DNA from: Pohlia nutans
Taxonomy: Eukaryota; Streptophyta; Bryopsida; Bryales; Mniaceae
DNA: 64,000 nucleotides
Assembly (NCBI GenBank): GCA_022496805.1
Contig: CM040102.1
Location: 21,173,955 to 21,237,954, forward strand
Direction: 5' to 3'
This document shows, piece by piece, positions 11,795 through 64,000 of this stretch; position 1 is the stretch's first letter, and every line of letters starts with the position of its first letter. The notes under the pieces were generated by a model. It did not search any database and was not told the origin of the DNA. It saw only the letters and a list, made by a program, of their open reading frames with translations. The position numbers and the translations under genes are program-made.

Positions 11795-14050
11795 ATGGCT
11801 GCATTACTGATCCAGATCTGTTGTCTGGGGCTGGTCTTGCTGCAAGTAGCGACCTCTCAAGCACAGAGAGACGACCTGTCATGCTTACTCAAGTTCAAAG
11901 CCTCCGTGGGAGACCCCGAAGGTCATCTCCTTACATGGACCAACGCAACCACCAGCCCGCGCTCCATCTGCACATGGTATGGAATTTTTTTGTGGCCATC
12001 AGTATCGCCAACTTGCTATTTGAAAATTTATGTTGCTAGAAGAACAATCGGGTAAAAAAACTAGAGTATATCGCCATAAATCTTCCCTTATCATTGGTAT
12101 GTATAGCCAACATCCGAAAAATGCTTTCAAGTTTCAATTCTCAAATCGCCGATGGGAAAAAAAATTCACAGGTATGGAGTTACCTGCTACGGCAACATGG
12201 CGCCCCCGGTGTACTTCATCAAACTCTCCGGATCGAGACTAAACGGTTCATTTCCTCAAGGATTGAAAGGGTGTAACGCGCTCACCCGGCTGGATTTGTC
12301 CGACAACAGTTTCACGGGCCCGATCCCAAGCAAGCTGTGCTCAGACTTACCCAATTTGGTGGACCTGGATCTGTCCCGGAACAAAATCCAGGGGAACATC
12401 CCACCCAACCTGGCAGAATGCAAGTTCATGAACGACATATTGCTCAACAACAACGAGCTTTCAGGGCCGATCCCTGAACAGATCGGGTACCTGAATCGCT
12501 TACAGCGCTTCGACGTGTCCAGCAACCGCCTGGAGGGCCTGATCCCGGCGACATTCGTAGACAGGCAATTCGAGAGTCGCTCCGGGTTCGACGCGAGCAG
12601 CTTCCTGAACAACACGAGCCTCTGCGGAAAACCGTTGAAGAACAAGTGCAAGAAGCTCCCGGCGAAGGGAGCCGGCGCTGGCGTGATCGTGGGCGGCGCC
12701 GTGGGCAGCGCCGCCGCCGTTTTGGCCGTGGGCGCCATCATCTTCTGCTACATCGTCAAGAGAACCAACAAGAAAACCGCAACCATTCTGCGAGATGAAA
12801 GCAAATGGGCCTCCAGAATCAAAGCGCCGAAGACCGTCACCGTCTCCATGTTCGCGAATCCGCTCGTGAAAATCAGGTTAAGCGACCTGATGGACGCCAC
12901 GAACGGATTCAACAAGGACAACATCGTGAGTACAACCCGATCGGGCGTGGTCTATCGAGGCGATTTCCCCGATGGATCCGTCATGGCGATCAAGCGATTG
13001 CAAGGCTCGGTGCACACCGATCGACAATTCCGTGCAGAAATGGAAACTCTAGGTGAGCTCAGCGAATCTTTTTGCGGCTATATTGATCGCCAACTTGCTA
13101 TTTGAAAAATCATGTTCCTATAAGGTAAAAAAACAGAATCTTCCGTTATCGATTAGCCAAGAACTCTATGTATTTGTAGTAATCGCCAAAAAATGCTCTC
13201 TGTTTTTCAAGTTTCAATTTTCAAATCGCCAATGGGGAAATAATGGGAAAAAAAAATCACAGGTGAGCTTCACCATAGAAACCTGGTGCCGCTTCTGGGC
13301 TACTGCGTTGTGGGGCAAGAGAGGCTACTGGTGTACAAGCACATGATGAACGGTTCCTTACATTACCGTTTACACGATGCGTTTGAGAAAGAGCCGCTGG
13401 ATTGGAAGACAAGATTGAAGATTGCAATCGGCGCGGCGAGAGGATTCGCATGGCTGCATCATAGTTGCAACCCGCGCATTATTCATCGTAACGTGAGTTC
13501 CAACTGCATTCTTCTCGACGAGGATTTCGAGCCTCGCATCACGGACTTTGGTTTGGCGCGTCTCATGAATCCGGTGGACACCCACATCTCCACATTTGTG
13601 AACGGGGATTTTGGCGACGTGGGGTACGTGGCGCCGGAGTATGTGAGGACTCTGGTGGCGACGATTAGGGGCGACGTGTACAGCTTCGGAGTGGTCTTGC
13701 TCGAGCTCGTCACGACGCAGAAGCCCGTGGAGGTCGTGGTGGACCGGGACTTCAAGGGCACTTTGGTGGACTGGGTGGCGATGCTGTCGTCCAGCGGCGC
13801 CATGGCGGACGCGCTCGACGCGTCGCTGCGAGGGAAAGGGGTTGACGAGGAGATGCTTCAAGTTCTGAAAATCGGCTGGTCTTGCGTCAATGCCACGGCG
13901 CGCGAGCGCCCCTCCATGTACGAAATCTGCGGCTTGTTGCGCGCTGTTGGGCAGCGCTACAGCTTCAGCAACGACGACTACGACGATTTCCCTGATGAGT
14001 TTCAAGAGTCTGAAAGGCGAGACAACAAGCTCATTGTTTCTGTAACATAA
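11795..14050 (+). CDS. BIR2-like leucine-rich-repeat receptor pseudokinase
   Basis: Exons 11795-11976, 12172-13052 and 13263-14050 join in frame to 616 aa. In order: a signal peptide (about residues 1-24, hydrophobic, ending SQAQ), an LRR N-terminal cap, a short LRR block (LDLSDNSFTGPIP and similar), a transmembrane helix rich in G/A/V, and a kinase-like domain. The VAIK lysine is present (MAIKRL, about residue 334) and DFG is kept (TDFGLAR), but HRD reads HRN (IIHRNVSS) and the glycine loop is degenerate, so the catalytic Asp is missing. Arabidopsis BIR2 is a known pseudokinase that holds the co-receptor BAK1 in check; the domain order and the NPVDTHISTFVNG segment fit that family. An immune or growth-signalling role at the plasma membrane is inferred. 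Both introns are unusual and are described separately. Confidence 0.9.
11977..12171 (+). mobile_element. Intron 1, candidate introner (intron-forming element)
   Basis: This 195-bp intron starts gtatgga, and the next exon starts with the same GTATGGA; with the G before each copy the direct repeat is 8 bp. Its body is homologous to intron 2 of the same gene (a shared 20-nt core TCGCCAACTTGCTATTTGAA, and near the 3' end TTCAAGTTTCAATT, TCAAATCGCC and TCACAG). Parts of its two ends are inverted complements: a T-run with CCATC, then ATTTGAAAATT on the left, against the complement of the 3' end. Confidence 0.75.
13053..13262 (+). mobile_element. Intron 2, second copy of the candidate introner
   Basis: This 210-bp intron starts gtgagct, and the following exon also starts GTGAGCT; including the preceding AG the repeat is 9 bp. 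It is collinear with intron 1, with several small gaps. The left end (ATTGATCGCC..ATTTGAAAAAT) and the complement of the right end (ATTGGCGATTTGAAAATT) form imperfect inverted repeats. The 5' splice site therefore comes from the target copy and the 3' splice site from the element. Confidence 0.75.
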
Positions 14051-24599: not shown

Positions 24600-26504
24600 T
24601 CAAGTTCCTCTTGATTCAAGACGGCGTATCACGGCATCAACTCCTTGTCCGTCTTCATACTTGGGCTTTGATTTATTAGCATCTGCCAATTGTAGCTGCA
24701 GTGCCTCCTGTTCTTGCACTGGATTCAGCTCTTCTTGCAGAGTACTCTGCAACCAGCCTGTAGATGGTAAACAGAACTAATAATTAGGAACTTCCTGTAT
24801 GAAAGAATGTGCACAGATAGCAAATATTACCAATGATACCAGGCCCGTTTACAGTTCTAAAGACAAGTTTTGAGCAAAACATTAAGGTTGAGTTCAAAGA
24901 CATAACTATTTGGAACCCACAAGACAAGACGGCAAGATATTCAAAGATAAGTAGGCTATGTTGGGCTAAGTGATGCTGTTTGTTTGACCATTTAGTAGGT
25001 TTGGAGCACTCCACAAAATGGTCAAACGAGCAAGACCGCTCACAAAATGTAAGAATCGAAATCATTTTATCGTGGAATGTAGCCATGCCCATCCGGACAA
25101 AGTGTAAAGCCCTTACATCCGGAGAGAGCGTACTTCTCCAACTTTTGAATAATCACATTGGTAGGTATCTAGACAAATGTAAACCAACCCATACAATGTG
25201 CATGCTCATGAGATTGGTGACTTTATCAAGGAAAAAGAAAATAGCTTCCACGGAATTCTTTTGAATTCAGAGAGTAGAAGTACCTAGAGGCAGAGCCACA
25301 GATGCACCGAGAATAGAGCCCAAAGCAGCCGAACTGATTCTTGACAACAGCGACCCTGGCACTGTCCGAGTGCAGAACCCAATACTACCCTGTCAATACA
25401 GAATACATGTTGCAACCCTTCATAAAATTGAATCCACATCAATCCCCCCTTTCCTACCGTCTTGGATAATCATCAACAAAAATATTCGTTGCAACTATTG
25501 CCAGAAAGGGATAATGCAGCAAACTTGCAGTTCTAATATACTCCCTCCGTCCCAAAGTTATTGTCATGTTTGAAAGTCATGTTTGAAAGTGCTTTTCTAA
25601 GTAGTCAAAAAAATACTTCCTTGTGATTAATTTTATTTAGGTTGCAATGAACACATGCAATGTTCTTCAATCATTCTAATGACATAATTTGGAACCTTTT
25701 TTAATCATGTTTCTTACAATATGACCTACTTAAAAAAGCACTTTCAAACATGACAATATCTTTGGGACGGAGGGAGTACAACGCTTGCCAGGAGAATCCT
25801 ATTATGATGAGCCAAGTCACTTAGACTCCAGAATTTTGCACATTCTAAAAAGGTTTTACAGGTCATACATGTAAGGCTGAAAGCTCCGCCCGTGAGGCCT
25901 CCAGCAGCCACTGTGTTGAATGCATCATGTGTATTGCGATGTTCAGCGAGTCCATGCTGAACACCGCTGAAAAGAGCCACAAAGGCCCCAAGCTTGGCGC
26001 CTCCCAACACTGTCCCTCGCGCAATGCGTAGAACCTTATTTTCCGTCATCTCTCTAATCACTTTCCCACGCCTCAACTTGTCCTCCCCGGGAATAGGTAA
26101 TCGAGATTGCTCCGTTCTCTGCCAAGCCAACAAATTAGGTCACCAGGGAAAAAACCTTATTCAGAAACGTGGGGGAAATCGATAGCAAGGGTGAGAAGTT
26201 TACAGCGGCAGAGGCAGCCTCACGGGCACCACCATACAGCATGCCGGCCAACACGCCTCCCGTGGTCTTGGTGCCCCATTCCTCAAACTCCGCTTTGATG
26301 GCAGGTGAGATCGCATCCTCCTGCAGCACGCACCAAAACAATCAATAACTGCACGAGCGACAGAAAGTAACCCTCCACAAACCAAAGCTCCCAACCCTAT
26401 TCCAATTCCTGGGCCAGTCAAATAAGCCAGCGAGCGATGCAAAAGTTGCAGAAAGAAGTAAACGGAGCCGAGAAAATTGCCTGAGGTGGTGCGGGAGCAT
26501 CCAT
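24600..26504 (-). CDS. Tim17/Tim22/Tim23-family membrane protein, first exon out of frame
   Basis: Four exons join cleanly: 26204-26320, 25869-26118, 25284-25361 and 24600-24757. They encode the glycine-rich helices typical of this family: TTGGVLAGMLYGGARE, RGTVLGGAKLGAFVALFSGV, NTVAAGGLTGGAFSL and AALGSILGASVALPLGW, then an acidic Gln-rich tail. Members sit in the mitochondrial or plastid envelope as import channels or complex I assembly factors; the arrangement reminds me of TIMMDC1-like proteins, but I cannot fix the subfamily. Upstream, 26334-26480 encodes a plausible first helix (LTGPGIGIGLGALVCGGLLSVARAVIDCF), but only 13-14 nt separate it from exon 2 and the frames do not match; the ATG at 26504 is in a third frame. 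Either there is a recent frameshift, an assembly error, or a different first exon is used. Confidence 0.7.
25541..25776. mobile_element. Stowaway-like MITE in a Tim17-family intron
   Basis: Ends CTCCCTCCGTCCCAAAG and CTTTGGGACGGAGGGAG are near-perfect complements, with TA on each side (25539-25540 and 25777-25778). The subterminal TCATGTTTGAAAG is also inverted. It lies in the intron between the exons at 25869-26118 and 25284-25361. The ends match the widespread plant Stowaway consensus. Confidence 0.9.
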
Positions 26505-36110: not shown

Positions 36111-36612
36111 ATCCTGTTTGCAGCGATGAAACGAGCAACATACGCATGTACACAGTTGCTGCCGGAGGATCTGGGCTTTCAGGATCTGCTGTATGGCCTA
36201 AAAGATAATTAGAATGTGCATGAGGATATTGGGAATTATGTGGACCTCACCGGTTCAGTGGTCGAGCTCGTCCTTCCTCTTGATAATATGCGTCGTCTCC
36301 AGGTGAGCATAATATTCCAGAATTTTTGAATTACATGGTTCGGTTTCCATGATTTTCCCGGTGCTGTCATTTCAGTAAGTTCAAGCAAGGCTCATGTGAC
36401 GGCCATTATTTGGATGTTAATTATCTGTCTGGCACTGTCCCTGCAATGTTTCATGATTGGGTGCTGTCACTTCTGCGCTTCATTATTTGGTCAGTGTTTG
36501 ATAATGTATAGCTGCATGTGAAGACAGTCCTTATGTTTTGTGCATATTGGTGTTTACTGGTATTCAGAAGGGTGGAGACTACTGAGCAGTTTGCTAGTAA
36601 GTCAAGGCAGCG

Positions 36613-39498
36613 ATGGCGCAACAGGAATTGCCATCAGACGTTTTCAATTCAGTTCTACGAGCATCCCAGCTGCCTGAGGGGAATTTGAAGCCCGTGGCAG
36701 GCTATGACTTCAACCAAGGCGTCGACCTCGATGCTCTCTTGAGGTCCTTGGGCTCCACCGGCTTCCAAGCTGCGCATTTGGGCCAGGCCATCGACGAAGT
36801 CAATCGCATGGTTGGCGTTTCTCTCTTTCCCTTCATTGTTGTTTCGTACAGCCAGCGTCCACTGTGTATTTTCTGTAGTGTTGGAAAATTGGACCCCCTG
36901 CTGGAAAGCATCTGTATGTGTGAAAATGACTTCAGTTTGACACGATCGACACTTTCGATCTTGTAGTGTAGAACAAGTGCATTAAAATGATGTACTGCAA
37001 TCAGAAAACCGAGGTAAAATGAGAAAATGCCACCGTTGCAAAGTTCAGTGATGCAAATGGCGTTTAAGACGCTTAGGGGTTAATCCAACCTCTCCTTTTT
37101 CAGATTATGAATGTTTTTCGAGGGTGACCAAAGTGTTGATTCAATGTCGGAATTGAATCACCTGACGAAGGAGAGGGCACTTATGTAGGTTCACCCAAAA
37201 CCAATACTGAATCTAAACCTCCCAGTCATATACCTCAAATGTATGACAGTGGTACATAATGTTGGTTTTGGATATATCGACCTTATTCATGGTTCGGATA
37301 ATTTTCACAATTCGAGATTCTTTTGGATAGAAACTGGCTTTTGTGAGTATTTGATCCTGTGTTCCTGCGATGATCTGGTTACTCTATTCAGCTTGAATGT
37401 TGCAAGAGACAGTACTAATTCGTGGAGTGGGTAATAGTTTCATTTTTTCAAGGTTACATCTCTTTGTAAGTAGTTAGAGTCTAGGTCTGCACATGCATGA
37501 GAATTCAAATGCCACTTCGTCGACTGACGGAACCTGTGGAATGCAGCTGGACTGGAGGCTAAGTGACGAGCCCGTAGATGAGAACACAAAGGATGCTCAC
37601 AAAGACCCGGAGTTTCGGAAAGGAGTGAAGTGCAAGATCTTTTTGGGATGTACTTCCAATATGATCTCATCCGGAATCAGAGAAACAATTAGATTCCTAA
37701 TTGAGCACAAAATGGTAAAAGGATGGATTATCAATAAAGAACAGCGCATGCACGTATAGACTTAGAGAATGAATGTAGCATTCCAACTGAAACAAGACTT
37801 GATCAGAGAAAGTGCATCTTGTTATGACCGATCAAAGTCTTGTTTTAGTTGGAATGCTACATTGATTTTGAACAATTATGTGTAGTTTTTTTTGCGGAAT
37901 TGTGTTTTCTCTGTATTGTTAGTTTATTCATTTGCGGCTCTAGTTGGATGTATGTTTGTCTAGTTGTCTGATGTGGCGGCATTGTTGAATGTGCGTTTAG
38001 GTAGATGTGCTGGTTACTACTGCTGGTGGAATTGAAGAGGATCTTATCAAGTGCTTAGCACCCACCTATATGGGTGACTTCGCTCTGCAAGGGGTTCAGC
38101 TGCGTTCGAAAGGTCTCAATCGTATCGGGAACTTACTGTTGCCCAATGACAATTATTGCAAATTTGAGAATTGGGTTGGACCGATTCTTGACCAGCTTTT
38201 AGTTGAGCAGAAAGATGAGGTCTTTCCACGTCTCCTTCTTTGTAAGTTAGTGGTTGAAATTTGAGTATTCCCGGTTTTTTAGCCAAGCTTGAGTTGTAAT
38301 GCTTGAAGATTACTCTGGATCATGCCTTACCGTTGAGAGGGTACACTATTATTATTTATATTCAGGGCTTTAGAGATCTCACTATCCGTTGAGTTGCTTC
38401 AAATGTTTGTTTAGAAGGCATAAGCATCTTGTAATCTCAACTGATGCATTTTGTCAGGGGACGATTTGGACTCCATCAAAGGTCATTGCCAGACTTGGGA
38501 AGGAGATCAATCACCCGGGCTCTATATGTTACTGGGCACAGAAGGTATTCTCTGTCAAAGACAAACAATTGGTCAGATGCCAAGCCATTCTGCAGTTGTT
38601 TCCAGCTTACAATGTGTCGAAACCAGCGATCTCCGTCCTGATAGTTTTACGGATTTCCTTTTAGTTGGTCAACTTGTAAGTATTTTTTGGTTAGGAAAAG
38701 GAGAAACCTGGTCGTTATTCGCCTTCTTACCAGAATCAATTTGGGTCATTTCAGCGACTTTATATCAAGGTTTATGTACCAATCTGACTGTTGGAGTTGA
38801 TTAACTCGCAGAATAATATACCCATATACTGCCCTGCACTTACTGATGGGTCACTAGGGGACATGGTCTACTTCCAGTCTTTTCGCAACCCCGGCTTTAT
38901 CTTAGACATTGTTCAAGGTACCGTTATCTATTTTGCTTGCTTAGTTTTCTGCAAGGTTAATGATTTTTTTGAAACCTTCACCGAATAATGTTCTGCTAAT
39001 ACTTTCTGACGCAGTAGTCACTTCAAATGCTGGCAGATATCAGGGGGATGAATAGTGAAGCTGTTTATGCCTCACCTAGTAAAACAGGAATTATCATCCT
39101 TGGAGGTGGCCTACCCAAGCACCATATTTGCAACGCAAACCAGTTCCGGAATGGAGCAGATTTTGCTGTCTTCATCAACACAGCCCAAGAGTACGACGGT
39201 AGTGATTCAGGCGCAAGACCTGATGAAGCAGTGTCTTGGGGGAAAATTCGAGGCAATGCCAATTCTGTGAAGGTAGGCTGGTTTTTCACCAGACCATGCC
39301 TATCCGTTTGCCTTGTAGATGTCAGTTATTTCCTAAATCTCTGGTCTTTTGATTTTCCTTCGGGTACTGAAGACATTCTTGGGTGCTTTTGGATTGCAGG
39401 TTCATTGTGATGCTACAATAGCATTTCCTCTTCTGGTGTCTCAAACATTTGCGGCTAGGGTGAAGGTAGAAAGGAATGAGACTGGTCCAGCTTCATGA
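36613..39498 (+). CDS. DHS: Deoxyhypusine synthase
   Basis: It transfers the aminobutyl group of spermidine to a lysine of eIF5A, the first step of hypusine formation (cytosol, NAD-dependent). Exons 36613-36810, 37547-37714, 38001-38219, 38458-38544, 38812-38917, 39037-39272 and 39400-39498 join in frame to 370 aa, the usual length. Family blocks are all present: [107 protein letters not shown] and [11 protein letters not shown], whose lysine is the catalytic residue (residue 329, the same number as in the human enzyme). The start is the ATG in the GCAGCGATGGCG context; no upstream in-frame alternative is needed. A near-perfect hairpin lies in intron 2. Confidence 0.96.
37772..37863 (+). ncRNA. 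Long hairpin in DHS intron 2 (possible small-RNA precursor or young MITE)
   Basis: The arms, AATGTAGCATTCCAACTGAA.. and its complement ..TTAGTTGGAATGCTACATT, pair over about 33 bp with one mismatch and one bulge, with a loop of about 25 nt. In the DHS sense transcript this would fold into a miRNA-sized stem. It could equally be a tiny foldback MITE; no expression evidence is available. Confidence 0.4.
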
Positions 39499-40262: not shown

Positions 40263-43200
40263 CTATCTTGAAACAAAACGTGTAGCAGCTCGACCGCTTT
40301 TGGTAACATGCATCTGTTTCAGGGGCATTGCTTCATCAAGTAGTAAACTTGAAGTTTGATGCTTTCGCTTTCTACAAGGACTCGCTGAAGTAAATTCTGA
40401 TGATGAGTTTTGCAAAGGCCTATTTGACTTCTTGCAAGCGTCTTGTCTCCTCTTCGTTTCATTCTTCACAAAAGTATCCAATGTACATTTGTCGCTTCCA
40501 GCTAATATGTAATCTCCACTCTGCACATCATAACTCAAAGATACCAAACATATCACAGAATCTATGCTTACCATATCTCTCTCTCGTCCATCAAATCCAC
40601 CATAGCTGTATCTCAAACCAGAAATGTGTTTATAATACTTCGGTAATATTTTAATATTTTTGGAGCTCAAAGGCACAGCTCGAACATAATCGACTCTAGA
40701 ACTTTCACCTACAATCTTTACTAACTTTTGAACCCTACCAAGATAACACACTATTTGCTTGTTTTCTTCAAAAAACATTGCAACATCGTCAAATAAGCCT
40801 AGTTCAGGTCCATCAGTAGAGGTCACTAGATTTTCCATAAGACCATGATATTGCACCCTTCTCAATCGATCAAGTGGGAGCTTATCAGAGGGTGCAAGGT
40901 TTAGTTCTGTCATTACCCGCATCTTATATACAAGACCTTTTCCTGGTATATCAACCATGGAAGATATGGAGCTTGATTCCGATGTTAAGCAACCAACTTC
41001 TGAACCTTCTTGCTCCAAGTCTTGGTTCAATGAGCTCACGCATATTAAAGATTCATCAAGCAAAGTATTGTTACCTTCAAGGTTTACGGCGGTGCTCTGA
41101 ACTTCCAAATTTGCAGCCTCTACAAACTGCACTTCAACATCTTCACAATCTTGCAAAGCACACTCATCAGCTAAGGAAATGGTATGCGAAAATGATGACG
41201 GCCATGGTGTTAACCACTTCTCTGATTTCACAAGTGTCTCTTTCATACCAACATAGTCAGCCCTAGCATGTGCCAAATTTAAGCCTGAAGACCAAGCTAC
41301 TTTAATTGCAGCATCAGTAAAGTATTCATATTGTCCAATGTCATCAACCCCACAACTTTGAGCATTTCCAAGCCACCAAAAGTTCTTCCTACGACGAGGA
41401 CCAACAAATACTGGCCCATTTTCTTCATGTTTAATTTGTTCACTCCTAGATATATAAGATGTTCGAGAAGCAGCTTCTCCAGCAGAAAAATTGTGCTTGT
41501 TCAGGACTTGTTGTCCTAGCATGGAAAAAAAATCTTCGCAACAATCAGATCCACTTCTTTCTAAAGCAATGGGTAAATGTGGAAAGAATTCTTTCATCAT
41601 CTGCATATGGAGTACACTTGAATGACAAGCTATTAAACAGTCGAGTTGTGACTCTCTCGTCATCCAATTTTCAGCAATAGTATGACCGTGACCCTTCTCT
41701 CGAATGTAACATGAGCCCAAGTACAACATATGAACAACAAAGGAGGCTAATTTCACTCTTTCCAACAAGCTCCCTCTACCAAAAAATAGCTCAAGAAAGG
41801 CCCATAATACCTCTAAATGAATGATGGTTCCACGAACATGTTCTTGTACATGCACACCATTCAAAGTCATACCTGCATCTAACTTTTCTAAACACGCACG
41901 AACTTTAGGGAAGGCAATTCTCTGAACAGCAGGCACATTTTGCTTATCTTTTACATTTATATCTTCTATCAACAACCTGTGTTCAGATTTGTCAAATAAC
42001 TCTAATACACGTAATAAATGGTTCTTATGAGCAACATGTTTTCCCCAAAACAACTCACGATTGGGAGCAAGGATTTGATTACGAAGCTTCTTACCAATGT
42101 GATATGCGTCTTGCATCATGATCATTGGGCGCCCATCAATGACTTCTCCAAGCATTAAAAACCCTTCAGTCTTTAGGCCATAGCTGCCCCGTCCAATACT
42201 CTCCAACATCAGCTTTCGTCTTCTTCCATCTCCATCAGATGCATGTCCGCAGAGAGGCCCAACAAGTCCTTCAAGATGTTTCTTGTGAAATCTCCCAATA
42301 ACTTCCCATTGCTCTGCAACTTGAGTATGGTCGAACCTGTTGCAAGTTGACATAATAGCATATACTAATCGAGGCATTCCTTTTACAAGTGGATTTGCTA
42401 TTAGAACTCTATACATACTACCAACATCATGAGTTTCAAACGCTGTTTTTATCAAATCAAAAGACTGAGACGAAGGTGAAGAATTGAATGAACACTTGTG
42501 TACAGATCCTTCACTACCTTTAAGACCACAAAATCCATCAATGGTATCAAGTCGTCTATTCCAAGTCGCAACCGAGATGCACTTTGTTTCATCTTCAGAA
42601 CATTCAAATGGAATGGGACCATTTATGCCCAATGTTTCCTTACATTTTACCAAAATAGATGCAATGTGCTTAAATGTCTCTTCATTCAGACCAAGCACAT
42701 AAATGAAACCATCTGACCTAAAACTAGCTAGAGTTGTATTTAGAGTTGGGCCTAACAGATTGGAAGAAAGAAAATTATGAGCAGCTCTTCCACCATAATT
42801 GTGCAAAACTTCAAACAATTTGAGGGTGCTAGGATGGTACCTTTTACCTCGTCCATCGCCACCATTTTTATGGACACTCAACAAGTTTTGAGCAAGGTCC
42901 TTGATAAACATATACAAACATGCTCGCTGATCCAAAGCTCCTATATTAGCTACTCTCTTAAACAACTCTGCAATTTCCGGCAAAGAGCCTTCTTCCATAA
43001 TCGATTTTGTCTTTTGGAGCAAGTAATTAGATGATTTTTTGGCTCTCGCCAAATCAACATTCAATAAATAGACTTGGTCAGATGCTAATTGGGCTCTACC
43101 TTTCCATCTGTGCAGTGACGATAGTAAGCCATCTCGCTGAAGATTCTCAAACCTAACTCCAGTGTAATCACCTTCACTCCTTTCTTTCTGAACATCAGAA

Positions 43201-44918
43201 GCTCGAATTACTCGCTTCCTGAAGTCCTGAAAGCCAGAAATCAACCCACACTTACAACAATTCATATTAGTGCATTCCATATGTCGAAAAGTACCATGAA
43301 TATTGATTGTTTTTCCTGTGTTAGACTGGATTGTCCTCTTGTAATGTGGATCAGAATACCAATCTTTTCCTGGATTCAAACCAAGTCTTACCTTCGAAAC
43401 ATCATATGGTATGCCGCTAATATAAAGAAAACTATCGTAATAACCATGACAAATTTTCTTCCTTTCAAAAGCAGCAAGTTCACTTGAAGGAATATCAGAT
43501 GGTTTAGGTATGTATGACAATGGATACTCGTTCAAACCTCTTTTGGCTCCACGCGTGAAGCATTCTGCAATTGTTTGTTGACTGTTGCTTCCACTCATAG
43601 CCAACTTGTTTTTTTTTGCCTGTAAATGATCTTGTCCTCGCATGTGAGACTTTATAGTATCACCAGCTCCAAATGTACCGCTGTAAGAACAAACATCACA
43701 CCTCCAATGATGATCATCGACCATTTCTGCACCTGCATGCAAACAAAATAAAAATAAAAATAATTACCCATAGCCCTAATTTGTTGCATCATTTATTAAA
43801 TTATACCTATAGCATATGACATCTACACAATTTAGATGAGACCAAATTTTATATCACTGGAATTAGTGAAGAACATTGCATATGTAGGTCAAAAAATAAA
43901 TAATTTTGAACAAAAAGAAGTCCATGCAGAACCTACTGAAAATTGATAACAAAAACATGAGTCAAAGAGCAATGTGAGAATACACACCTTCATCAGCATA
44001 CTTCTTTATCCATACACTGCGTTTGATGCGATCTTCCTCTACTTTGAGATCCATCTCCTTTTGCCTTTGCTCTCCTTCTATCTTCATCTTTGCTAATGCC
44101 AATTCATGGAAAGTAGGCTTCCCAACTCCTCCAACTGCTCTTGGTGTTAGATGAGTCTTGAAATTTGCAAGATTAAGGCTGCCTTTATTGACATTAATCT
44201 CTTTCTGACATGGCTCACAGAAGATGGTCCAGCATCTTCCCTTCTTGACATCCTTGCTCTGCCTTGGGTAATACACCCCTGATTTCTCAAAGGTAAAATG
44301 TGAACGAATGTCCAACCAATTTTTTTTCAATACTGGTGGAAGGCTCAGCAGATAACTAGAGTCATTGAAGTCGAAGCTAGGATCTTCGAGATCTTTCATC
44401 TTTTGATGAGGTGCCCGATCAGGTGACTCTATCTTGATGGTCTCTAAAATCACAGGGAGTTTTGGTTCACATTCTATATCACACGAAGGTTCATTAGTAA
44501 CCTTCAGTCTTTTCGCTTCAGGTTCTTCATTCCTCGTTAAATCAACAAGCTGAGATCGTGTAACTAGTGAGATCTTGTGCGAATCTTGTGAGGAAGCATC
44601 GAGAAATGAAGAAACTAACTGTTTAAGACCTGGCTGACAATGAAAATTCTTATGGCAGTTGCAGCATGCACATCGCCGGTCATTGACAGTTGAAGCTAAA
44701 AATCCTTGGCACCCATCCCTTTGACCGTCAACGATCTTCTCACAAATCCCAAACTGAACCACTTCTGCCGTAAATACCAAATGGTAATTTCGGTGGCAAT
44801 CACAACACTCGCACTTAAGAGGATCGTCCTGAGATGGTTCGAACTCTGTGCATCCATCGAAAATGCCATCTTTGCCCTTGTTATTATGGCAAGCAAGATA
44901 ACGGATTGACTCAACCAT
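40263..44918 (-). CDS. ZF-HD-like zinc fingers fused to a P-element/THAP9-like transposase domain
   Basis: Exon 1 (43988-44918) and exon 2 (40263-43732) join in phase to an uninterrupted 1,466-aa protein. The N-terminus has two fingers with the ZF-HD dimerisation pattern: FDGCTEFEPS..LKCECCDCHRNYH, then DGCQGF..CACCNCHKNFH. Next come a BED-like finger (FCEPCQKEI..FKTHL) and, just after the splice, a C2H2-type finger (CDVCSYSG..HMRGQDH). The large C-terminal part resembles P-element/THAP9 transposases: SEDETKCISVA (first Asp, about residue 691), MQDAYHIGKKLRNQ (second Asp, about 852) and SDCCEDFFSML (Glu, about 1044). The DxxH..K..RN and sDc.E.fFs blocks fit that RNase H fold; this is my alignment from memory. 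The absence of stops suggests a young transposon or a domesticated gene. No clear terminal inverted repeats were found. Confidence 0.7.
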
Positions 44919-53354: not shown

Positions 53355-56300
53355 TTACTCAACAGCAGTCACAACTACGCCAATCTGATCAACATAAGTA
53401 GCTGCTCGGCCAAATAGTCCCACAATTCTCTTTCCAGTTGGAGTTTCAAATGCCGTTCCTGTTGCAAGACCAAACGGACCGTAGGTCTTCTTGTTGGAAA
53501 TGATGGACAAGGACGTGATAATCACAATTCCTGAAACTGGAGATTTGGCAAAAGTGCCCTTGATTTGTGTCAGGTATTCATCTGCACCTGTAAATGATAT
53601 CTGAGATTGCCAAATCACAACTGCGCATTAGAAAGAAGCGGTAAAATTTCATTGTTGCACGAGAATGACTGCTATCAAAATGCTACGAAAATAAACTACT
53701 AGTAGTTGAAAGCGATACCTTGACATTGTTCCCTTCGGATGAATCCCCATGCTTTGAAGCCACGTGCACGCAGTCCCCTTGTACATAGGCAGCTTGTAGT
53801 GCCACAATTTGGCTGCTGCTGTGGCGGACATTGATCTCACAGATGCGACCCTGGCCATCGTGGAATGCATTGCCACCATTTCCACCCCAAGGGCCAACAT
53901 GGGAAGCAACATCTGAATTATTTCCAGCACGAAGTTTTGAGATCACACCCAGCTGGTCAATAAATGCCCCAGCTCTTCCAAAGAATCCCACAACCGTGCC
54001 ATTACGATAGGTCTGGAACGGTTGACCACGAGGAGTCCCAAAAGGTCCAAACGTGGCCTTGCTTGTTATGAACGTCAAAGAGGTGATAGCAATCACACCG
54101 TTACACTTCCCAAAAGTGCCCTTCACTTGTACCAGGTACGATTCCGAATCCTTGAGTGAGATCTGAATACCATCACATTTCAAAATATTTGACTCAGTAT
54201 ACAAAAACTGTGAAGAAACTAAATAAACATGCACGAACAATATCCTGAAAATGTTGCTACCTTTGTCGATTCTCCACCATTACCGCCAAGCATGTCTGCA
54301 TCATATTCAGTTCCGTTGTGCTCATACGTCATTTGCAACGACATGATCTGGGTCTTCTTGTAGCCAACAGTAATAGAGCAAAGCTCTCCATTACCATGGT
54401 AGAAACCAATTCCTCCAGCACCACCCCAAGGTCCTTGAGCTACCACCTCTTCGGCACAACTCTCACCGGAAAATTCGGTGATAAAACCAATCTGAGAAAG
54501 ACAGATACCAGCTCTACCGTAAAATCCCAGCACCTTCCCCTTAGGAGAGCTCTGAAATTCTGACTCTTGAGGATGGCCAAACGGTCCATATACCCTGCGG
54601 TTAGATACAAATGAGAGTGACGTGACCACGAGTTCCCCACCCACAATTCCTGTTGTTCCTTTCACTTGAATGAGCTCCTCCTGTGGGACTTTGAAAAGGA
54701 TCTGTTACAGATTACCAACCTCAATCAGTCACCGAAACAAGGTCTTGAAAGATAACACTGTCAGAATCTCATAAACAAACGAATCCCAACAGAATTCAAC
54801 ATCTAGTTTCAGCACCCATCGTCACATACTATCTGCAATAAATCCCCAAGCCTTGCTGTATTGCGTACCTTGGCAGTTTTGCCACCCGGTCCTCCATGAA
54901 AATCTGCCTTGAAAATTGCACCACCTTGACTGTAAATGGTTTGTATCGAGATAATATGTCTCTTGTTATAGGTAACAACGATTCCAACCACTTCACCTTT
55001 GCCATCGTAGAAAATAGTCCCACTTTTACCTCCCCAAGGCCCTTGCGATAAGACAATTTCATTGTCACCAGGTGACACCTCTGTAATTACACCGACTCGA
55101 TCCAAAAACTCATCACTACGTCCATAAAAACCAACAATCTTCCCGTGCACCCTGCTCTCAAACTTGTTGTCAGTCACAGTACCAAACGGCCCGTAGCTAG
55201 TCTTCGTGGTTATGAACTTCAAAGACGTGATCATGTCACTGCCATATACAGAATTCCCCATCGATCCTTGAATCTGAAGAAGCTGCTCGTGGGGATAATC
55301 AATTTTGATTTGGACAAAAAGAATATCAAAATTATGCAAAATAGAGATCAAGAACACTATTACATCAATAGAAGCCACCTAAATAATATACTAAATAGCA
55401 GGAAAACAGACTTTAAATAGTATCGTTTATACAAACTTAAAAAGAATAAACAACATCGGAAACCAAAAACTCAGAATACCAAAGAAAAATACCTTGCATG
55501 TGTCTCCCCCAGGGCCAAAACGAGCGGTAGTTTTGAAGATTGAACCACCCTGTTCATATGTCACTTGCAAGGAAATGACGTAATCCTCAACATACTCAAC
55601 AAGAATTTCAACGATATCACCTCTGCCATCGTAAAATGATGACCCGCCATCACCACCCCATGGACCATGTGCAACAACTTCCCTACCCGATATCATCGAC
55701 CCAACTGAACCGTGGCATCGGACGAACACATCCTTCTCATCCGATGCCCGATAAATTCCAAGTCGGTCAATAAAAGACCCAGATCTGCCAAAGAAACCAA
55801 TAACCTTCCCCAATCCAGAGCTTGAAAACGACGATCCCTCCTCTGTACCGAAAGGTCCATAAACAGCCTTGTTGGAAACAAAAGTAAGAGCAGTGATAAT
55901 TTGACTATCATTAACATATCCATATGTCCCAGTGAGACGGGTGATGAACTCATTCTCTGGTTCCAGAAGGATCTGCATCATTAAACTACCACCGTTAAAG
56001 TAGAACGAAATAAATAATTCAAAACCTAAAAAAACAAAAGAATGCAGGTGCAGGCATTAAAGATACCAGGTAGAGCCAAGTAGAATACCTTGGTAAAGTT
56101 TTCCTCGTCTCCACCATACTTTCTTCCTTCAAAAATAGAACCTGAAGACTGATATTGAACTTCCAAAGCAACAACCTCGCACTCATTGTGGAAAACGACA
56201 ATCTCAGTAATATCCCCAGTACAATCAGTGAATTCCAATCCACCTAAACCACCCCAGGGTCCTTCAGCGACAAAAGAAGAGGAAGACCCAACACCGTGAT

Positions 56301-59300
56301 CATATGTACCGAAAACTCTCCGCTCAGAGACATTATCACCATCGATACTCCAAGAGACAGAAGCATGAGACCTTGGAGTCAGATCTCCAAAGTCACTTTT
56401 AGAAACACTAGACGGCCTAGAAACCATTGATAAATCGTGAGACCTCGAAGACTTGTAAGACCTAGTGGACTTCGGAGATTTGAAACTATTATCAGATTTC
56501 GATGACTTATGAGACACAGATAACTTAGAGGACTTCGAGGACTTAGACCACTTCGAAGAACCACGAGACTTGAATGAATCCGAAGAAATCGACGAGTCGG
56601 ACTCATTCGTAGAGTGAAACGACATCGACGACTTCGACGAACTAGAACTAGAAGACGAGGACGACTCCGACACCCTGGTACTCGTCTCCACCAGCCGCCC
56701 GACCCTCTTCTCCAGATCAACCTTCAAGGACAATGAGCCTGAACCCGACTGATTCTCCTCGTGCCCAAACTCGTGGTCAACGCCATCCGCCACGACCTGC
56801 CCCCACACGCGCACCAATTACAACCACAACTTCAGCACCAAAAACGGCCACAAACCACCACTCACAAGCCCACATCCAAGCGTGACTCCCGGATCCAATT
56901 TCCACATTCCATTCGCATCCCTGCCACTAACAATGCAAGCTTCAGCCCCCCAGCTTAGAGTCCCAAACGCTCACCTCAGTCACAATCGGATCAACCACAC
57001 CCGGCGGCTGCTTCTCCCACCCCACCTCAGTCACACTCGGCTCGGGCTCAGGGCCCTTGCTGGTGGTGCCCGTCTCCCAACTGCCCTGCTCCTCAGGCTC
57101 CTCATGCTCCTCAGCCTCCCTGCGCCATGAGCCAGGACCCGGCAGCTCCTCCTCCGGCCCCAACTCCTTCACAACCTGCCCCCACACGCGCACCAATTAC
57201 AACCACAACTTCAGCACCAAAAACGGCCACAAACCACCACTCACAAGCCCACATCCAAGCACGCACTCCCGGTTCCAATCTCCACATTCCATTCGCATCC
57301 CTGCCACTATCAATGCAAGCTTCAGCCCCCCAGCTTAGAGTCCCAAACGCTCACCTCAGTCACAATCGGATCAACCACACCCGGCGGCTGCTACTCCCAC
57401 CCCACCTCAGTCACACTCGGCTCGGGCTCAGGGCCCTTGCTGGTGTTGCCCGTCTCCCCACTGCCCTGCTCCTCAGACTCCTCAGGCTCCTCAGCCTCCC
57501 TGCGCCATGAGCCAGGACCCGGCAGCTCCTCCTCCGGCCCCAACTCCTTCACAACCTGCCCCCACACGCGCACCAATTACAACCACAACTTCAGCACCAA
57601 AAAACGGCCACAAACCACAACTCACAAGCCCACATCCAAGCACGCACTCCCGGTTCCAATCAACACATTCCATTCGCATCCCTGCCACTAACAATGCAAG
57701 CTTCAGGCCCCCCAGCTTAGAGTCCCAAACGCTCACCTCAGTCACAATCGGATCAACCACACCCGGCGGCTGCTTCTCCCACCCCACCTCAGTCACACTC
57801 GGCTCGGGCTCAGGGCCCTTGCTGGTGGTGCCCGTCTCCCCACTGCCCTGCTCCTCAGGCTCCTCATGCTCCTCAGCCTCCCTGCGCCATGAGCCAGGAC
57901 CCGGCAGCTCCTCCTCCGGCCCCAACTCCTTCACAACCTGCCCCCACACGCGCACCAATTACAACCACAACTTCAGCACCAAAAAACGGCCACAAACCAC
58001 CACTCACAAGCCCACATCCAAGCACGCACTCCCGGTTCCAATCTCCACATTCCATTCGCATCCCTGCCACTAACAATGCAAGCTTCAGGCCCCCCAGCTT
58101 AGAGTCCCAAACGCTCACCTCAGTCACAATCGGATCAACCACACCCGGCGGCTGCTTCTCCCACCCCACCTCAGTCACACTCGGCTCGGGCTCAGGGCCC
58201 TTGCTGGTGGTGCCCGTCTCCCCACTGCCCTGCTCCTCAGGCTCCTCATGCTCCTCAGCCTCCCTGCGCCATGAGCCAGGACCCGGCAGCTCCTCCTCCG
58301 GCCCCAACTCCTTCACAACCTGCCCCCACACGCGCACCAATTACAACCACAACTTCAGCACCAAAAACGGCCACAAACCACCACTCACAAGCCCACATCC
58401 AAGCGTGACTCCCGGTTCCAATTTCCACATTCCATTCGCATCCCTGCCACTAACAATGCAAGCTTCAGCCCCCCAGCTTAGAGTCCCAAACGCTCACCTC
58501 AGTCACAATCGGATCAACCACACCCGGCGGCTGCTTCTCCCACCCCACCTCAGTCACACTCGGCTCGGGCTCAGGGCCCTTGCTGGTGGTGCCCGTCTCC
58601 CCACTGCCCTGCTCCTCAGCCTCCTCAGCCTCCTCAGCCTCCCTGCGCCATGAGCCAGGACCCGGCAGCTCCTCCTCCGGCCCCAACTCCTTCACAACCT
58701 GCCCCCACACGCGCACCAATTACAACCACAACTTCAGCACCAAAAAACGGCCACAAACCACCACTCACAAGCCCACATCCAAGCACGCACTCCCGGTTCC
58801 AATCTCCACATTCCATTCGCATCCCTGCCAGTCCTGCCGACTCGTTTCAGCCGCTTAATTGGTGCTTGTTCCTTACAATTGTGCTTTATGGGGAGCACTA
58901 TGCCTGGTTGTTTCAGAGGTTTAATTCTGTTGTTTACCTTTATGTTCGGTGTGGCGGCCCTGGTCGTAGTGGTTTTGTTGTTGCTTTGGTGGTTTGGATG
59001 TTGTTTAGTTTTTTGTTTGGTGTGGATGTTTCTGAATGTTCCTGGGGTTATGTTGCAGTTTTGGTCTTGTTCAGTGGTGTATTCTGCATTTTGTTGGACA
59101 TGAGTTGACGTTGTTTGTGTTATGTGTATTGATGCGTTGCGGGCTGGGTCTAGGGGGACGTTGTTATTGTGTTTGTTGTGGATGCAGCGACAATGAGTGC
59201 AGTGGGTTGGGGTGGTCGGTGGAGGGACAAGGGTGAGAACTCCTAGCTGGTGAAGGACGAGATCGGATTTTCCGAAGAATCCGACAACCTTTCCGCCTGG

Positions 59301-62300
59301 TGTACTTTGAAATTTTCTGCCCCGCTTAGCTCCGTATGGTCCGTATGTTGTTTTATTGGTGAGTATCGTAAGAGATGTGACTCCATGTGTTCCATTATCA
59401 ATCCCGGTTGTGCCGCGTACTTGGATCAAGTACTCGTTGTCTGAGTCGAGTTGCATCTGTACATGAAGACACGTGAGAATGTCAAAAGTTGGATGTACAA
59501 TTAAATTTTGCGTGCTTAATTTATTGTTTCTTTGGAATTGGGAAATTGATGAGGAATATACACTAGTCTTGGTGTTGATAGCTGGTGGATTGCAGTCTAC
59601 CGATGATACTTAAGAGAGTTGACGTTAGCTTTGGTAGAGTAGCGTTCTAAAACTAAGTCCTGAGTTCTGCTTACCTTGACGCAGTGAGGACCTGTCCCAC
59701 CATGTAGCCCTCCTTGGAAGCTGATTCCACCTTGCTCATACCCCACTTGAATGGAGGTAATGTGAGTGTCGGTGAAGTTGATGGTGATGTGAACAATGTC
59801 ACCTCTTCCGTCATAAAACTCATGACCTTCCCACCCTCCCCACGGCCCCTGTGGAATCACCAAGGTATTGCCATCTTGGTGTAGGTATTGCCATCTTGGT
59901 GTACTGATTTCTGGAGCTCTCTTAGTTGTATTGCTCCCACCTGGTTTAGCGACGTTCTTGATGCAGCCGATTTGGTCGACAGAGTTTAGTGACGATCTTC
60001 CATAAAATCCCACCACGGGACCAGAAGGAGAGCTCTGAAACGTTCTACCTGATGGAGAACCATACGGGCCATAGCTCTGCTTGTTCGTAATGAACGTAAG
60101 AGAAGTGATGACGTTCTCCTCCTGAACACTACCCATCGTTCCTTCAACTTGAATTAAGTACTCGTCTGGGAAGTCCAATTTTATCTGCGATAAGAAGCAG
60201 GCCTCCCGATTGCCACTTTGTTAGGGTCATTAGGTACTAAAATTTGGAATGACATCATCGTTCAAAGTGTTACTACAGGAAGAGGTAATGGGACTCACCG
60301 TTGCCACAGCACCATTTCGTCCACCGTGCATATCAGCCTGAAAATCAACACCTCCTTGGTCATAACTAGCTTGGAAAGACAGAATTTGGCTTTTGTTGTA
60401 AGTGATGACAATTTCAACAATGTCACCTCTACCATCATAGAAGGATTCACCTCCTTGGCCTCCCCAAGGACCTTGTACAAGAATTTCATCGACACTGTTA
60501 TGTGCGCCTTCTGTAGCATTCTCGCTGAAACAGCCTCTCCAACTTTCACCTTCCCAAAACCCACCATCTACTATGTCCCTCCCCTTAACTACACATTCTT
60601 TAATGACTCCAACTTGATCCAGGTGAGAACCGGACTTTCCGAAAAATCCGACCACCTTTCCATGAGATGAGCTCTCAAATCCCTGTCCTTGTACATTACC
60701 ATAGGGTCCATAGCTCTTTTCGTTCGTCACAAATGTCAAAGACGTGACAACTTCATCACTGCCATCTATGTTTCCAACGGTTCCCTTCACTTGTACCAAA
60801 TATTCATTCACAAACTGCATTTTGATCTGTACAAGAACATCACAATATTTTACACACTAACAGATGAACTCAAATTCGCACTCTTGTAAAAATGAATTGA
60901 GTTCGTTTTTACATGTGTCGGTTATTATGTTAATAACTGGGGAAATGAAGAAAAAAAGAGAAAAAATATGGTTGTTTCATGATGTTACACGCAGAGTTGG
61001 TGGTACCTTTGTCATATCCTGTTTGGGAGGCGCACAGAGACCAGTGGTGTAGCCGAGTCCACTGTGGGCATACGTTGTTTGAAACGAAACGACTTGACTC
61101 TCATTGTAGGCGACCACCATCTCCACAATGTCACCAGCGCCGTCATAGAAGCCAGCCCCTCCCAAACCTCCCCAAGGTCCTTCCACTGTCCTACGCGTGC
61201 CGACCGAAACGCAAGAAGCATGGCCGTAGCATCGCTCCAGGGTATCGCTGAAGACGCCCAGCTGGTTGAGGAACAAGTTTGAAGCTCTGCCGAAGAATCC
61301 TGTCACCTTCTGTCCACTGGGGTTCTCGAACGAGTCACGCGTCACACACCCGTAAGGTCCATACACATTTTTGTTCGTGATGAATGTGAGAGATGTGATC
61401 CCCTCACCAGAAGCAAAACTCCCTGTGGTTCCCTTCACTTGAACCAGGTATTCCAACGGGTGGCCGAGGCTGATCTGAAACCGAAGCCAAATTTGCATTA
61501 GAAGTATTATTTCGACCACATTCACTAGAATTGTCAAACCAAAGTGGTGAGGGTTACGTGAGCTTTACCTGTGCAGTACTGTCACCGCGTCCCCCGTGTG
61601 ATGGGCCTTTGAAAGTGGTGGAGCCGTGTGCATAGCTCGCTTGCAATGAGATCACTCGCTCCGTGTTATAAGCGACCTGAATTTCCACAATGTCGCCCCT
61701 GCCATCACAGAACAGATCCCCTCCAAAGCCTCCCCAGGGACCATGAACGATCGTCCCTTCCTCAACATGACTGACTTCCTGCTGCCTGGGTTTATGTATG
61801 TGGTGCTCATGAATCCTGAAACAGGAATCCTCATATAATCCATGACCGTCGTGATGTGAGGGTCCAGGTTTCCCATTGTGGATGCCTGAATTCAAAGCTT
61901 CCCCAATCAGGACCCCGGTCGCTGAGTTTCCGTTAGTTTTTTCGTGTCCATTGACACGGACTGACGTGGTTTGTTCCTCAACATTGTCAATGACCGTACT
62001 GTAGCTGGTCTCTTCGTAGCCTGACAACAAAATGGTGTCACTCTGAGTGTTTTCTTGCGCATGGTGATGTGCTTCAAAGGAACCCCCAACGGCACCGTTG
62101 CTGTTGAATTCGTCATGGCTTGAGTTCAACTCGGATATCACACCGATCTGGTGAAGAAGGGAGTCCGCTCTTCCGAAAAAGCCCACCACCTTCGTATTCC
62201 GGGTAGTCTCGAAGCCTTTGCCGAAATTCGAACCAAATGGACCATACACGGCCTTATTTGTGATAAACGTCAACGAGGTCACCACCTCCACTCCGTTGAG

Positions 62301-63739
62301 AATGTCGACCGTTCCTTTGACCTGCACGATCTCGCTACGAGAACGCAAGCTCACCTGGAAGGAAACCAGTACCAACATTCAATCAAACTTGAGGGTGACA
62401 CAAAACCCTAAACATTTGGGCTGACGTGCACCATAGCGGACCTTCATAAATAATGAACCCTAAAAGCCAATCTACTCGAGATTTGAATCAAAGAATCGGG
62501 GTTAAGGATCCAAGAATTGGAATTTAGAATTGGAACTGACAAGAAACAAAAAGAGTGTCCAAATACCTTCACGGTTTCACCGATCTCGCCTCCCCAGCAG
62601 TCGCTCTTAATACTCTCCACGCGGGCTCCAAGACTGTATGTGACTTGTAAGGCCACAATGTGAGTCTTGGTGAAGGTAATGAAGATGTCCGCGAGTTCAC
62701 CTCGGCCACTGCAGAACGGCACCCCGTGAGGACCGCCCCAAGGCCCCTGGACAACTGCAGGAGTAGGATCTTGATGATGCTTAGTGATGACCCCGATTTG
62801 ATCCAGGCGTGCCCCACTACGGCCAAACAGTCCACTCACCTCGCCGCCCGGGGAGCTTTCAAACGCTCGGCCTGTGACGCGACCATACGGCCCGAACTCT
62901 CCCTGGTTCGTCACGAACGTCAGCGACGTGATGGACTCTCGTCCTGAGACCTTTCCTGCGGTCCCTTTCACTTGCACCAGGTACTCAGAGGACGACTTGA
63001 ATGTTATCTGTGAGTTGGGCAACAAATATTATTAAAAAAGACGATCACAATTGCGAAGTCATTACTCTCTAGAATTGTTACGAATTTCATCAATCGTAAT
63101 TCAGATGGGTCCAAAATTTATATCACCAGAATCAGTGAAGAAGATTGCATACGTATGTGAATTGGACAAATGAAAGTCCTTACGTGACCTATTCAAAGCA
63201 CTTTGGACGGAGGGAGTACCAACCTTGGTGGATGTGCCGGATGGAGTGCCGTGGACACAGCCTTGAAACGAGACGCCGCCGTGATCAAAAGTTGCTTGGA
63301 TGGAATTGATCTGGTTCTTGTGGGATGTGACAATGAGCTCCACAATTCGGCCATGGCCGTCGTGGAAGGCGCGGCCGCCGGGACCACCCCACGGCCCTTC
63401 CACCACCAGGCCAGTACCGGCGAGGCTGGAATCATTTGCAGTGATGATATTCTTGCCCTTGGTATCACTTCCAGCAGGTTGCTGGACGTGGGTGACAATG
63501 TTACAGGGCTGGTACAAGACGCCCAACTGGTCAAGCAGAGTGCCGGACTTGCCAAAGAATCCCACCACTTTTCCACCCGACAGGCTCTCAAACCTCTGCC
63601 CCCGGTCGTTGCCGTAGGGTCCATAAACTTGCTTGTTAGTGATGAATGTCAACGACGTGACGACATCGCCAATTGTCGCGCACAAGCCTGCTGTACCTCT
63701 CACCTGAACTAAGAATTCATCCGGGTACTGCAGCGTAAT
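53355..63739 (-). CDS. Giant multi-domain jacalin-related lectin, 5' end outside the window
   Basis: Exons (minus): D1 63224-63739, D2 62567-63007, D3 61569-62354, D4 61007-61474, D5 60299-60826, D6 59675-60184, D7a 58938-59456, five short exons 58498-58698, 58119-58319, 57737-57937, 57355-57555 and 56975-57175, D7b 56089-56796, D8 55493-55972, D9 54869-55378, D10 54261-54701, D11 53719-54162, D12 53355-53600 (stop). All introns are phase 0 and at least 2,533 aa are visible. Each D exon encodes one jacalin beta-prism domain (Y.VQVKGT.G, SLTF.TNK..YGP.G, VGF.GRSG..LDQ.G, GPWGG.GG..FYDGRGDIVEI); D7 is split and D12 stops halfway. Jacalin domains bind mannose or galactose-type sugars; many copies imply multivalent glycan binding, as in defence lectins. 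D3, D6 and D7 carry long inserts before GPWGG. It could conceivably be more than one gene, but no intergenic gap, start or internal stop was seen. Confidence 0.88.
55379..55400 (-). other. Shifted splice acceptor of lectin domain 9
   Basis: Every other full-domain exon starts at AG|AT(A/C/T) or AG|GTG just before its first beta-strand. At D9 the expected site reads CAA|ATC, so the AG is lost. An in-frame acceptor upstream (TTATTTAG|GTG, exon start 55378) would rescue the exon at the cost of about 23 extra residues, mostly hydrophobic. Confidence 0.55.
56797..58850 (-). repeat. Tandem array of five exon-intron units (about 380 bp each) inside a split jacalin domain
   Basis: Exons of exactly 201 nt (67 codons, phase 0/0) alternate with introns of about 180 bp. 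Unit spacing is 379, 382, 382 and 380 bp. Both exon and intron parts are almost identical between units. Each exon encodes an acidic Pro/Glu/Gly-rich block (KELGPEEELPGPGSWRREAE.., TSKGPEPEPSVTEVGW). The array lies between D7a and D7b, so the protein carries five acidic repeats and then the Ser-rich region of D7b within one jacalin domain. Confidence 0.85.
59862..59903 (-). repeat. 21-bp direct duplication in domain 6 insert
   Basis: The phrase GGTATTGCCATCTTGGTGTA occurs twice in tandem, adding seven in-frame residues (a doubled WQYLHQDGN-like motif) to the pre-GPWGG loop of D6. Confidence 0.75.
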
Positions 63740-64000
63740 CTGCCACAATAATTATATCATCATGAGAATCCTTTGCGTGTAGATTGTGCCCTCCCAAAAA
63801 AACATATTCAATTGTGAGGTCCAAGTGCCCAAATATCAAAAGCTGTCTCTGAAAAACATGCCATGAGATCTAAACACTAGGACCGGGTATTGCGGATGAC
63901 TAAATTCTCCATGCAAATATGAATATAAGAAAGCAGAATGAGAAGTGGACGATGGTGAGTGCCTTCTTGAAGACTGAACACAAGCGTTTACTCTGCACAA
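63740..64000 (-). other. Upstream intron of the lectin gene, to the window edge
   Basis: Domain 1 begins at a splice acceptor (TTGTGGCAG|ATTACG), so an earlier exon must exist. None is visible in this last 260 bp, which has no good frame. Confidence 0.5.

Follow-up and report, generated by a model that had tools for sequence, protein, structure and literature searches.

The window, a 64,000-nt stretch of the Pohlia nutans genome (C18:21173955-21237954; 698 Mb in 332 contigs were searched), carries a BIR-like LRR receptor kinase gene with two introns. After the predicted splicing, the three exons form a single 616-aa frame, and LRRNT, LRR and kinase domains were found in the product. The protein showed 86-90% identity to four moss-like relatives across 97-100% of the length, and the nearest named proteins were those of Ceratodon purpureus (88%), Physcomitrium patens (80%, over 83% of the length) and Sphagnum tenellum (65%). 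The first-pass annotation had compared the gene with BIR-type genes of flowering plants; the host is a moss, and the nearest named proteins are all from mosses. A homeologue on contig C17, 97% identical, carries both introns. The moss protein P0006 (610 aa, 80% identical to the BIR-like product) runs unbroken through both intron positions; it comes from a JGI sequence cluster in which the longest contig measures 32.6 kb, and, provided that this contig encodes P0006, the comparison suggests that another moss has an intron-less orthologue. The features of the window are collected in Table 1; Rfam and tRNA scans of the window gave no matches.

Table 1. Features of the window, with positions counted from its first nucleotide
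Feature	Position	Strand	Basis
BIR-like LRR receptor kinase gene, coding part, three exons (11795-11976, 12172-13052, 13263-14050)	11795..14050	+	frame, phases, domains, full-length moss relatives
Intron 1 (GT-AG, 195 nt, phase 2), very probable introner copy; element part about 11982-12171	11977..12171	+	intron alignment, homeologue comparison (5' end deleted)
Direct repeat GGTATGGA, left copy, contains 5' splice site	11976..11983	+	repeat at splice sites
Direct repeat GGTATGGA, right copy, begins exon 2	12171..12178	+	repeat at splice sites
Family core motif ATCGCCAACTTGCTATTTGAAAA in intron 1	12004..12026	+	285 exact genome matches
Intron 2 (GT-AG, 210 nt, phase 1), very probable introner copy; element 13060-13262 (CAGCG...CACAG)	13053..13262	+	intron alignment, homeologue comparison
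Direct repeat GGTGAGCT, left copy, contains 5' splice site; in the homeologue GTGAGCTT, flush with CAGCG	13052..13059	+	
Direct repeat GGTGAGCT, right copy, begins exon 3	13262..13269	+	
Family core motif in intron 2	13086..13108	+	
Pieces of a Tim17-family gene	25747..26139	-	
Pieces of a deoxyhypusine synthase gene	36601..39407	+	
Open frame of 1166 aa with cysteine/histidine-rich start, possibly part of a transposon	40266..43763	-	
Row of similar frames, with a match to a jacalin-like lectin domain in one of them	53358..63751	-	
Tandem repeat of 382 bp, 5.4 copies, within the row of similar frames	56791..58830		

Alignment of intron 1 with intron 2 gave 68.6% identity over 191 columns (blastn E ~1e-14; nhmmer 6e-16 and 2e-16), which covers most of both lengths and bears out the proposal, made from the sequence at first reading, that the two are homologous. 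Elsewhere in the window no further copies were found, and the remaining blastn matches were 11-35 nt long with E values of 0.12 or worse. Direct repeats lie at the splice sites of both introns, GGTATGGA (8 nt) at intron 1 and AGGTGAGCT (9 nt) at intron 2. Across the window, among all GT...AG pairs with a spacing of 60-600 nt, at least 7 bases matching past the junction occurred in 18 of 103,691 pairs on the plus strand and in 31 of 127,339 on the minus strand; because such repeats are so rare, their presence around both introns of a two-intron gene is not due to chance. In the C17 homeologue, intron 2 reads CTAG-GTGAGCTT-CAGCGAATT...AATCACAG-GTGAGCTT-CACC (hyphens mark boundaries), with a flush 8-bp duplication that begins with GT and an element end altered from CACTG to CACAG. 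The donor GT thus comes from the duplicated target, as had been supposed. The companion claim, that the acceptor AG comes from the element, holds for the CACAG of this copy in a modified form, the native end being CACTG and AG arising only after mutation. Likewise, the direct repeats are present around both introns as claimed, except that the one at intron 2 of the window gene is 9 rather than 8 nt long and the register given for it was one base off. At intron 1, the element of the window copy has lost its 5' end relative to the C17 homeologue, so the last bases of the window repeat GGTATGGA are partly fortuitous.

A genome search with intron 1 returned at least 52 matches, the best 40 of 1,094 candidates being scored, and we read the 39 other scored places with about 2 kb of flanking sequence, together with 20 copies from contig C1 with shorter flanks. 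The fetched copies represent one element, beginning CAGCGAATTTTTTTGTGGC... and finishing ...AAAAATCACTG. It is AT-rich and about 270 bp long (mostly 240-280 bp), with the ends CAGCGAATTTTTTTG...AATCACTG and 8-bp target duplications. Its inverted terminal repeats are of the CAGNG kind (CAGCG...CACTG in the fetched copies), in agreement with the inverted repeats that had been noted at the element ends. The core 23-mer had 285 exact matches in the genome and the 3' 23-mer 153, or 762 with up to three mismatches allowed, whereas reversed-pattern controls for these 23-mers gave 0 matches; a 20-nt piece of the core motif had no exact match in viral contigs. Among 21 non-intron copies with both ends readable, nine were flanked by a perfect, flush 8-bp duplication, compared with 0.12% of shuffled pairs, and the rest matched at 7 of 8 duplication bases (five copies) or at 4-6 (seven copies).

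Transposons of the hAT superfamily make 8-bp target duplications and have CAGNG ends. By its own ends and 8-bp duplications, the moss element is a hAT-type MITE. At about 270 bp it is too short to encode a transposase. Domains for hAT dimerization are abundant in the genome (at least 150 scored, the best 150 of 663 candidates); no hAT transposase with the element ends was found within about 1.5 kb of 30 loci read from these 150 matches, and the 1166-aa frame of the window, considered as an autonomous partner, had no Pfam match. The hAT-type MITEs of plants treated in the accessible part of PMC12550479 are likewise short and non-autonomous with 8-bp duplications, and the CAGNG ends common to hAT elements are shared as well; the moss element differs in that a large share of its intact copies bears an acceptor plus GT signature at the right end.

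We found that 22 of the 39 fetched best matches form GT-AG introns, and taking them out joins long frames; 20 were set by hand and two (L023 and L047) by an automatic test. Sampling by best match favours intron-like copies. When close paralogues were set aside (L009, a paralogue of the window gene, L023, L027, L031 and L032), 17 introns remained, in non-homologous genes, that share sequence up to both splice sites, where at least four per genome are needed to speak of introners. In 9 of 14 spliced segments tested, a Pfam domain spans the splice junction (F-box, Amidohydro_2, ADH_N, PFK, Glyoxal_oxid_N, Mito_carr, PARG_cat_C, 2-Hacid_dh_C and GRAS); of the other five, L025 has its junction between two domains and four had no Pfam match. 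The spliced carrier protein of L041 aligned over its full length to a relative with 89% identity. A less biased sample, 25 consecutive core 23-mer matches on C1 from 1.73 to 42.99 Mb, contained six clear introns (L043, L044, L081, L082, L092 and, judged by eye, a copy within L047 at C1:13786852), 15 copies that show no intron and four ambiguous ones (L080, L086, L087 and L093). Genome-wide, CAGGT, an acceptor followed by GT, stands 4-33 nt after 64 of the 153 intact 3' motifs; gene duplicates are included in this number, and 63 of the 64 ends, which could be classified, comprise 56 distinct strings. The expectation that the genome would hold further intron copies was therefore borne out in the best matches, in the consecutive C1 sample and in the 3' motifs alike. 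Several element copies, all on one strand, lie within single 4-kb loci (L029, L016, L042, L047 and L011), so one gene may have gained several introns.

Target duplications also mark the introns of the family. In 22 introns (26 minus the paralogues L009, L027, L031 and L032), comparison of bases 3-8 of the intron with those of the exon that follows gave agreement at 79 of 132 positions, with a shuffled mean of 42.3 and none of 20,000 shuffles reaching 79; just upstream, where exon end was compared with intron end, 34 of 88 positions matched (shuffled 24.4; 71 of 20,000 shuffles reached 34). Together with the nine perfect duplications among non-intron copies, these results confirm the flanking repeats that had been predicted for the family. 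We tested both orientations of 59 copies, a pass being frames of at least 45 aa joined on both sides, and found joined frames in 25 sense and 5 antisense cases, all five antisense copies passing in the sense direction too. When at least 5 of 8 duplication bases had to match as well, 18 sense cases (including the ambiguous L080) and no antisense case remained. In the fetched 4-kb loci, all 19 additional copies shared the strand of the first, with none opposite. The antisense mirror pattern at the 5' end had three matches in the genome (a raw count), two of which are the same string; these identical strings, at C5:32661891 and C7:20402883, have CAGGT just outside the element 5' end read antisense and are possible antisense introns. 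Among the observations that count against a transposon origin of the introns, fewer than 5 of 8 duplication bases match in 7 of the 25 sense cases, and in many intron copies the left duplication is separated from CAGCG by a few extra bases.

This orientation bias is also what would be expected if the introns had spread through RNA, a spliced intron reverse-splicing into other transcripts and re-entering DNA as a copy, a route proposed for the introner-like elements of fungi. Sense-only intron copies are predicted by that route and were found, and the need for an acceptor at one end of the element predicts the same. Spread through RNA is nevertheless very unlikely here, given the target duplications of about 8 bp in exons and the non-intron copies that have perfect flush 8-bp duplications and CAGCG/CACTG ends.

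Two ways of providing the splice sites occur within the family. In the first, the donor comes from the duplication and the acceptor from a mutated element end, for example in intron 2 of the C17 homeologue; in the second (L010, L011, L013, L017, L038 and L043), an ACTG-like end or flank is kept and the second copy of a CAGGT-containing duplication supplies the acceptor. Of the 56 distinct strings, 31 belong to the first kind and the other 25 to the second. GT follows the junction in the joined exon of nearly all introns, with GC in L028, L031 and L092. AGGT before the element 5' end (pattern CGAATTTTTTTGTGGC) occurs in 32 cases, a raw count and not a fraction.

Joined-flank queries, made of 100+100 nt of exon around 12 introns (the window gene not among them), were searched against the genome, and the best 40 of 62 candidates were scored. 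Each of the 12 source loci is broken at the junction, as is one or more of its close duplicates, with flanks 93-100% identical; for the duplicates the comparison concerned the position of the break. As close duplicates are interrupted too, the insertions seem to predate a recent genome duplication. More distant paralogues provided at least 15 uninterrupted sites for 5 of the 12 genes among the best 40 of 62 candidates. The L041 carrier accounts for eight (84-90%), of which three lie on the same contig within 25 kb, the PARG gene L043 for two (81-82%), the PFK-type gene L038 for two (79-80%), the GRAS gene L037 for two (78-79%) and the glyoxal oxidase gene L042 for one (78%). Intron gain at new positions, which is likewise expected of introners, is thus seen at these sites, one of which was read base by base. 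At that L041 site, 176 of 197 aligned bases match the joined flanks, with four gap columns close to one end, and the site contains GGTGAGGA once with the element absent. The carrier genes at C5:19273640-19298808, one with the intron and three neighbours within 25 kb without it, form a natural before-and-after comparison. The check for intron absence that had been proposed thus came out positive in part: uninterrupted paralogues exist for five of the 12 other genes and P0006 suggests an intron-less orthologue of the window gene, whereas for the other seven genes no uninterrupted paralogue was present among the best 40 of 62 candidates.

These sites bear on the reading that the introns are ordinary and old and were later invaded by the same MITE, their homology being only apparent. 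Two copies, L022 and L045, which are embedded in other sequence and have flush duplications close to a possible donor, are of the kind that such invasion would leave. In the introns described above, however, the element extends to the splice sites at either end, the duplication spans the intron boundaries and paralogues run unbroken through the junction; for L041 late invasion is contradicted outright by the empty site with its single target and no intron. We regard this reading as extremely improbable. Equally hard to credit is that the insertions are unspliced and the genes broken, with open frames over the joined flanks reflecting recent decay, since the copies have GT-AG ends with restored frames and a sense-only pattern, and close duplicates of 12 of 12 genes are interrupted at the same point yet keep flanks 93-100% identical.

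The two introns of the BIR-like gene are thus very probably introners, copies of an abundant, short, non-autonomous DNA transposon of hAT type in this moss. This interpretation, first put forward on the basis of the window, is supported by introns of the same family in many genes, by flanking duplications and by uninterrupted paralogous sites. From the ends and duplications we infer that a hAT transposase would act on the element ends and move it by cut-and-paste DNA transposition, and that a copy, on inserting, would make an 8-bp target duplication. Where the insertion falls in sense orientation into an exon at a site holding GGT, the duplication would supply the donor GT, and the acceptor AG would be provided either by the element itself, its terminal CACTG having mutated to CACAG, CGCAG or similar, or by the second duplication copy (NNCAG/GT). 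The spliceosome would then excise the element together with one copy of the duplication, leaving the mRNA as it was and turning the insertion into an intron; insertions elsewhere would remain ordinary MITEs. Sites of this kind may be preferred at insertion, or it may be that only insertions into them survive. It is likely that a hAT-type MITE made a genome-scale intron invasion in a land plant and that a large share of its intact copies are now introns, with insertion perhaps aimed at AGGT-like exon sites.

Introns made in this manner have been described in algae and fungi. According to the accessible part of Gozashti et al. 2022 (PMC9860276), the duplication supplies the 5' splice site and the element the 3' site in some introner families, while others co-opt both from the target. 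The moss family resembles the DNA-transposon introners described there in having similar introns in many genes, duplications by the splice sites and the same splice-site sources, and is unlike the introners surveyed in its land-plant host and in having both splice-site modes inside one family. The fungal introner-like elements (PMC4457414 and PMC9860276, as far as accessible) also multiply similar introns, but are without target duplications or terminal inverted repeats and are held to spread via RNA (PMC9860276), whereas the moss element has both. In the survey of 3,325 genomes, as presented in the accessible text of PMC9860276, no more than two groups of animals and land plants have introners, both of them animals, and arguments have been built on this absence from land plants; the first-pass statement that no land-plant introner family is known agrees with the survey. 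We likewise found none reported in the open-licence literature, preprints and most subscription papers lying outside the search. The Ds-derived intron of maize, reportedly described by Giroux et al. in 1994, is a case of a hAT-type element making an intron in a plant gene; it is a single case, whereas the moss element is a family across many genes. A review (PMC3443670, in its accessible part) lists isolated cases of transposon-made introns from Zea and Oryza and also gives the idea of AGGT duplication.

The origin of spliceosomal introns is a long-standing question. If the present interpretation is true, no earlier report of an introner family in land plants would exist, and plants would be shown to be capable of gaining introns in bursts. 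With its intact copies, its uninterrupted paralogous sites and its insertions shared between duplicates, such a moss family would overturn the supposed absence of introners from land plants, and, since mosses are transformable, the creation of introns de novo would be directly testable.
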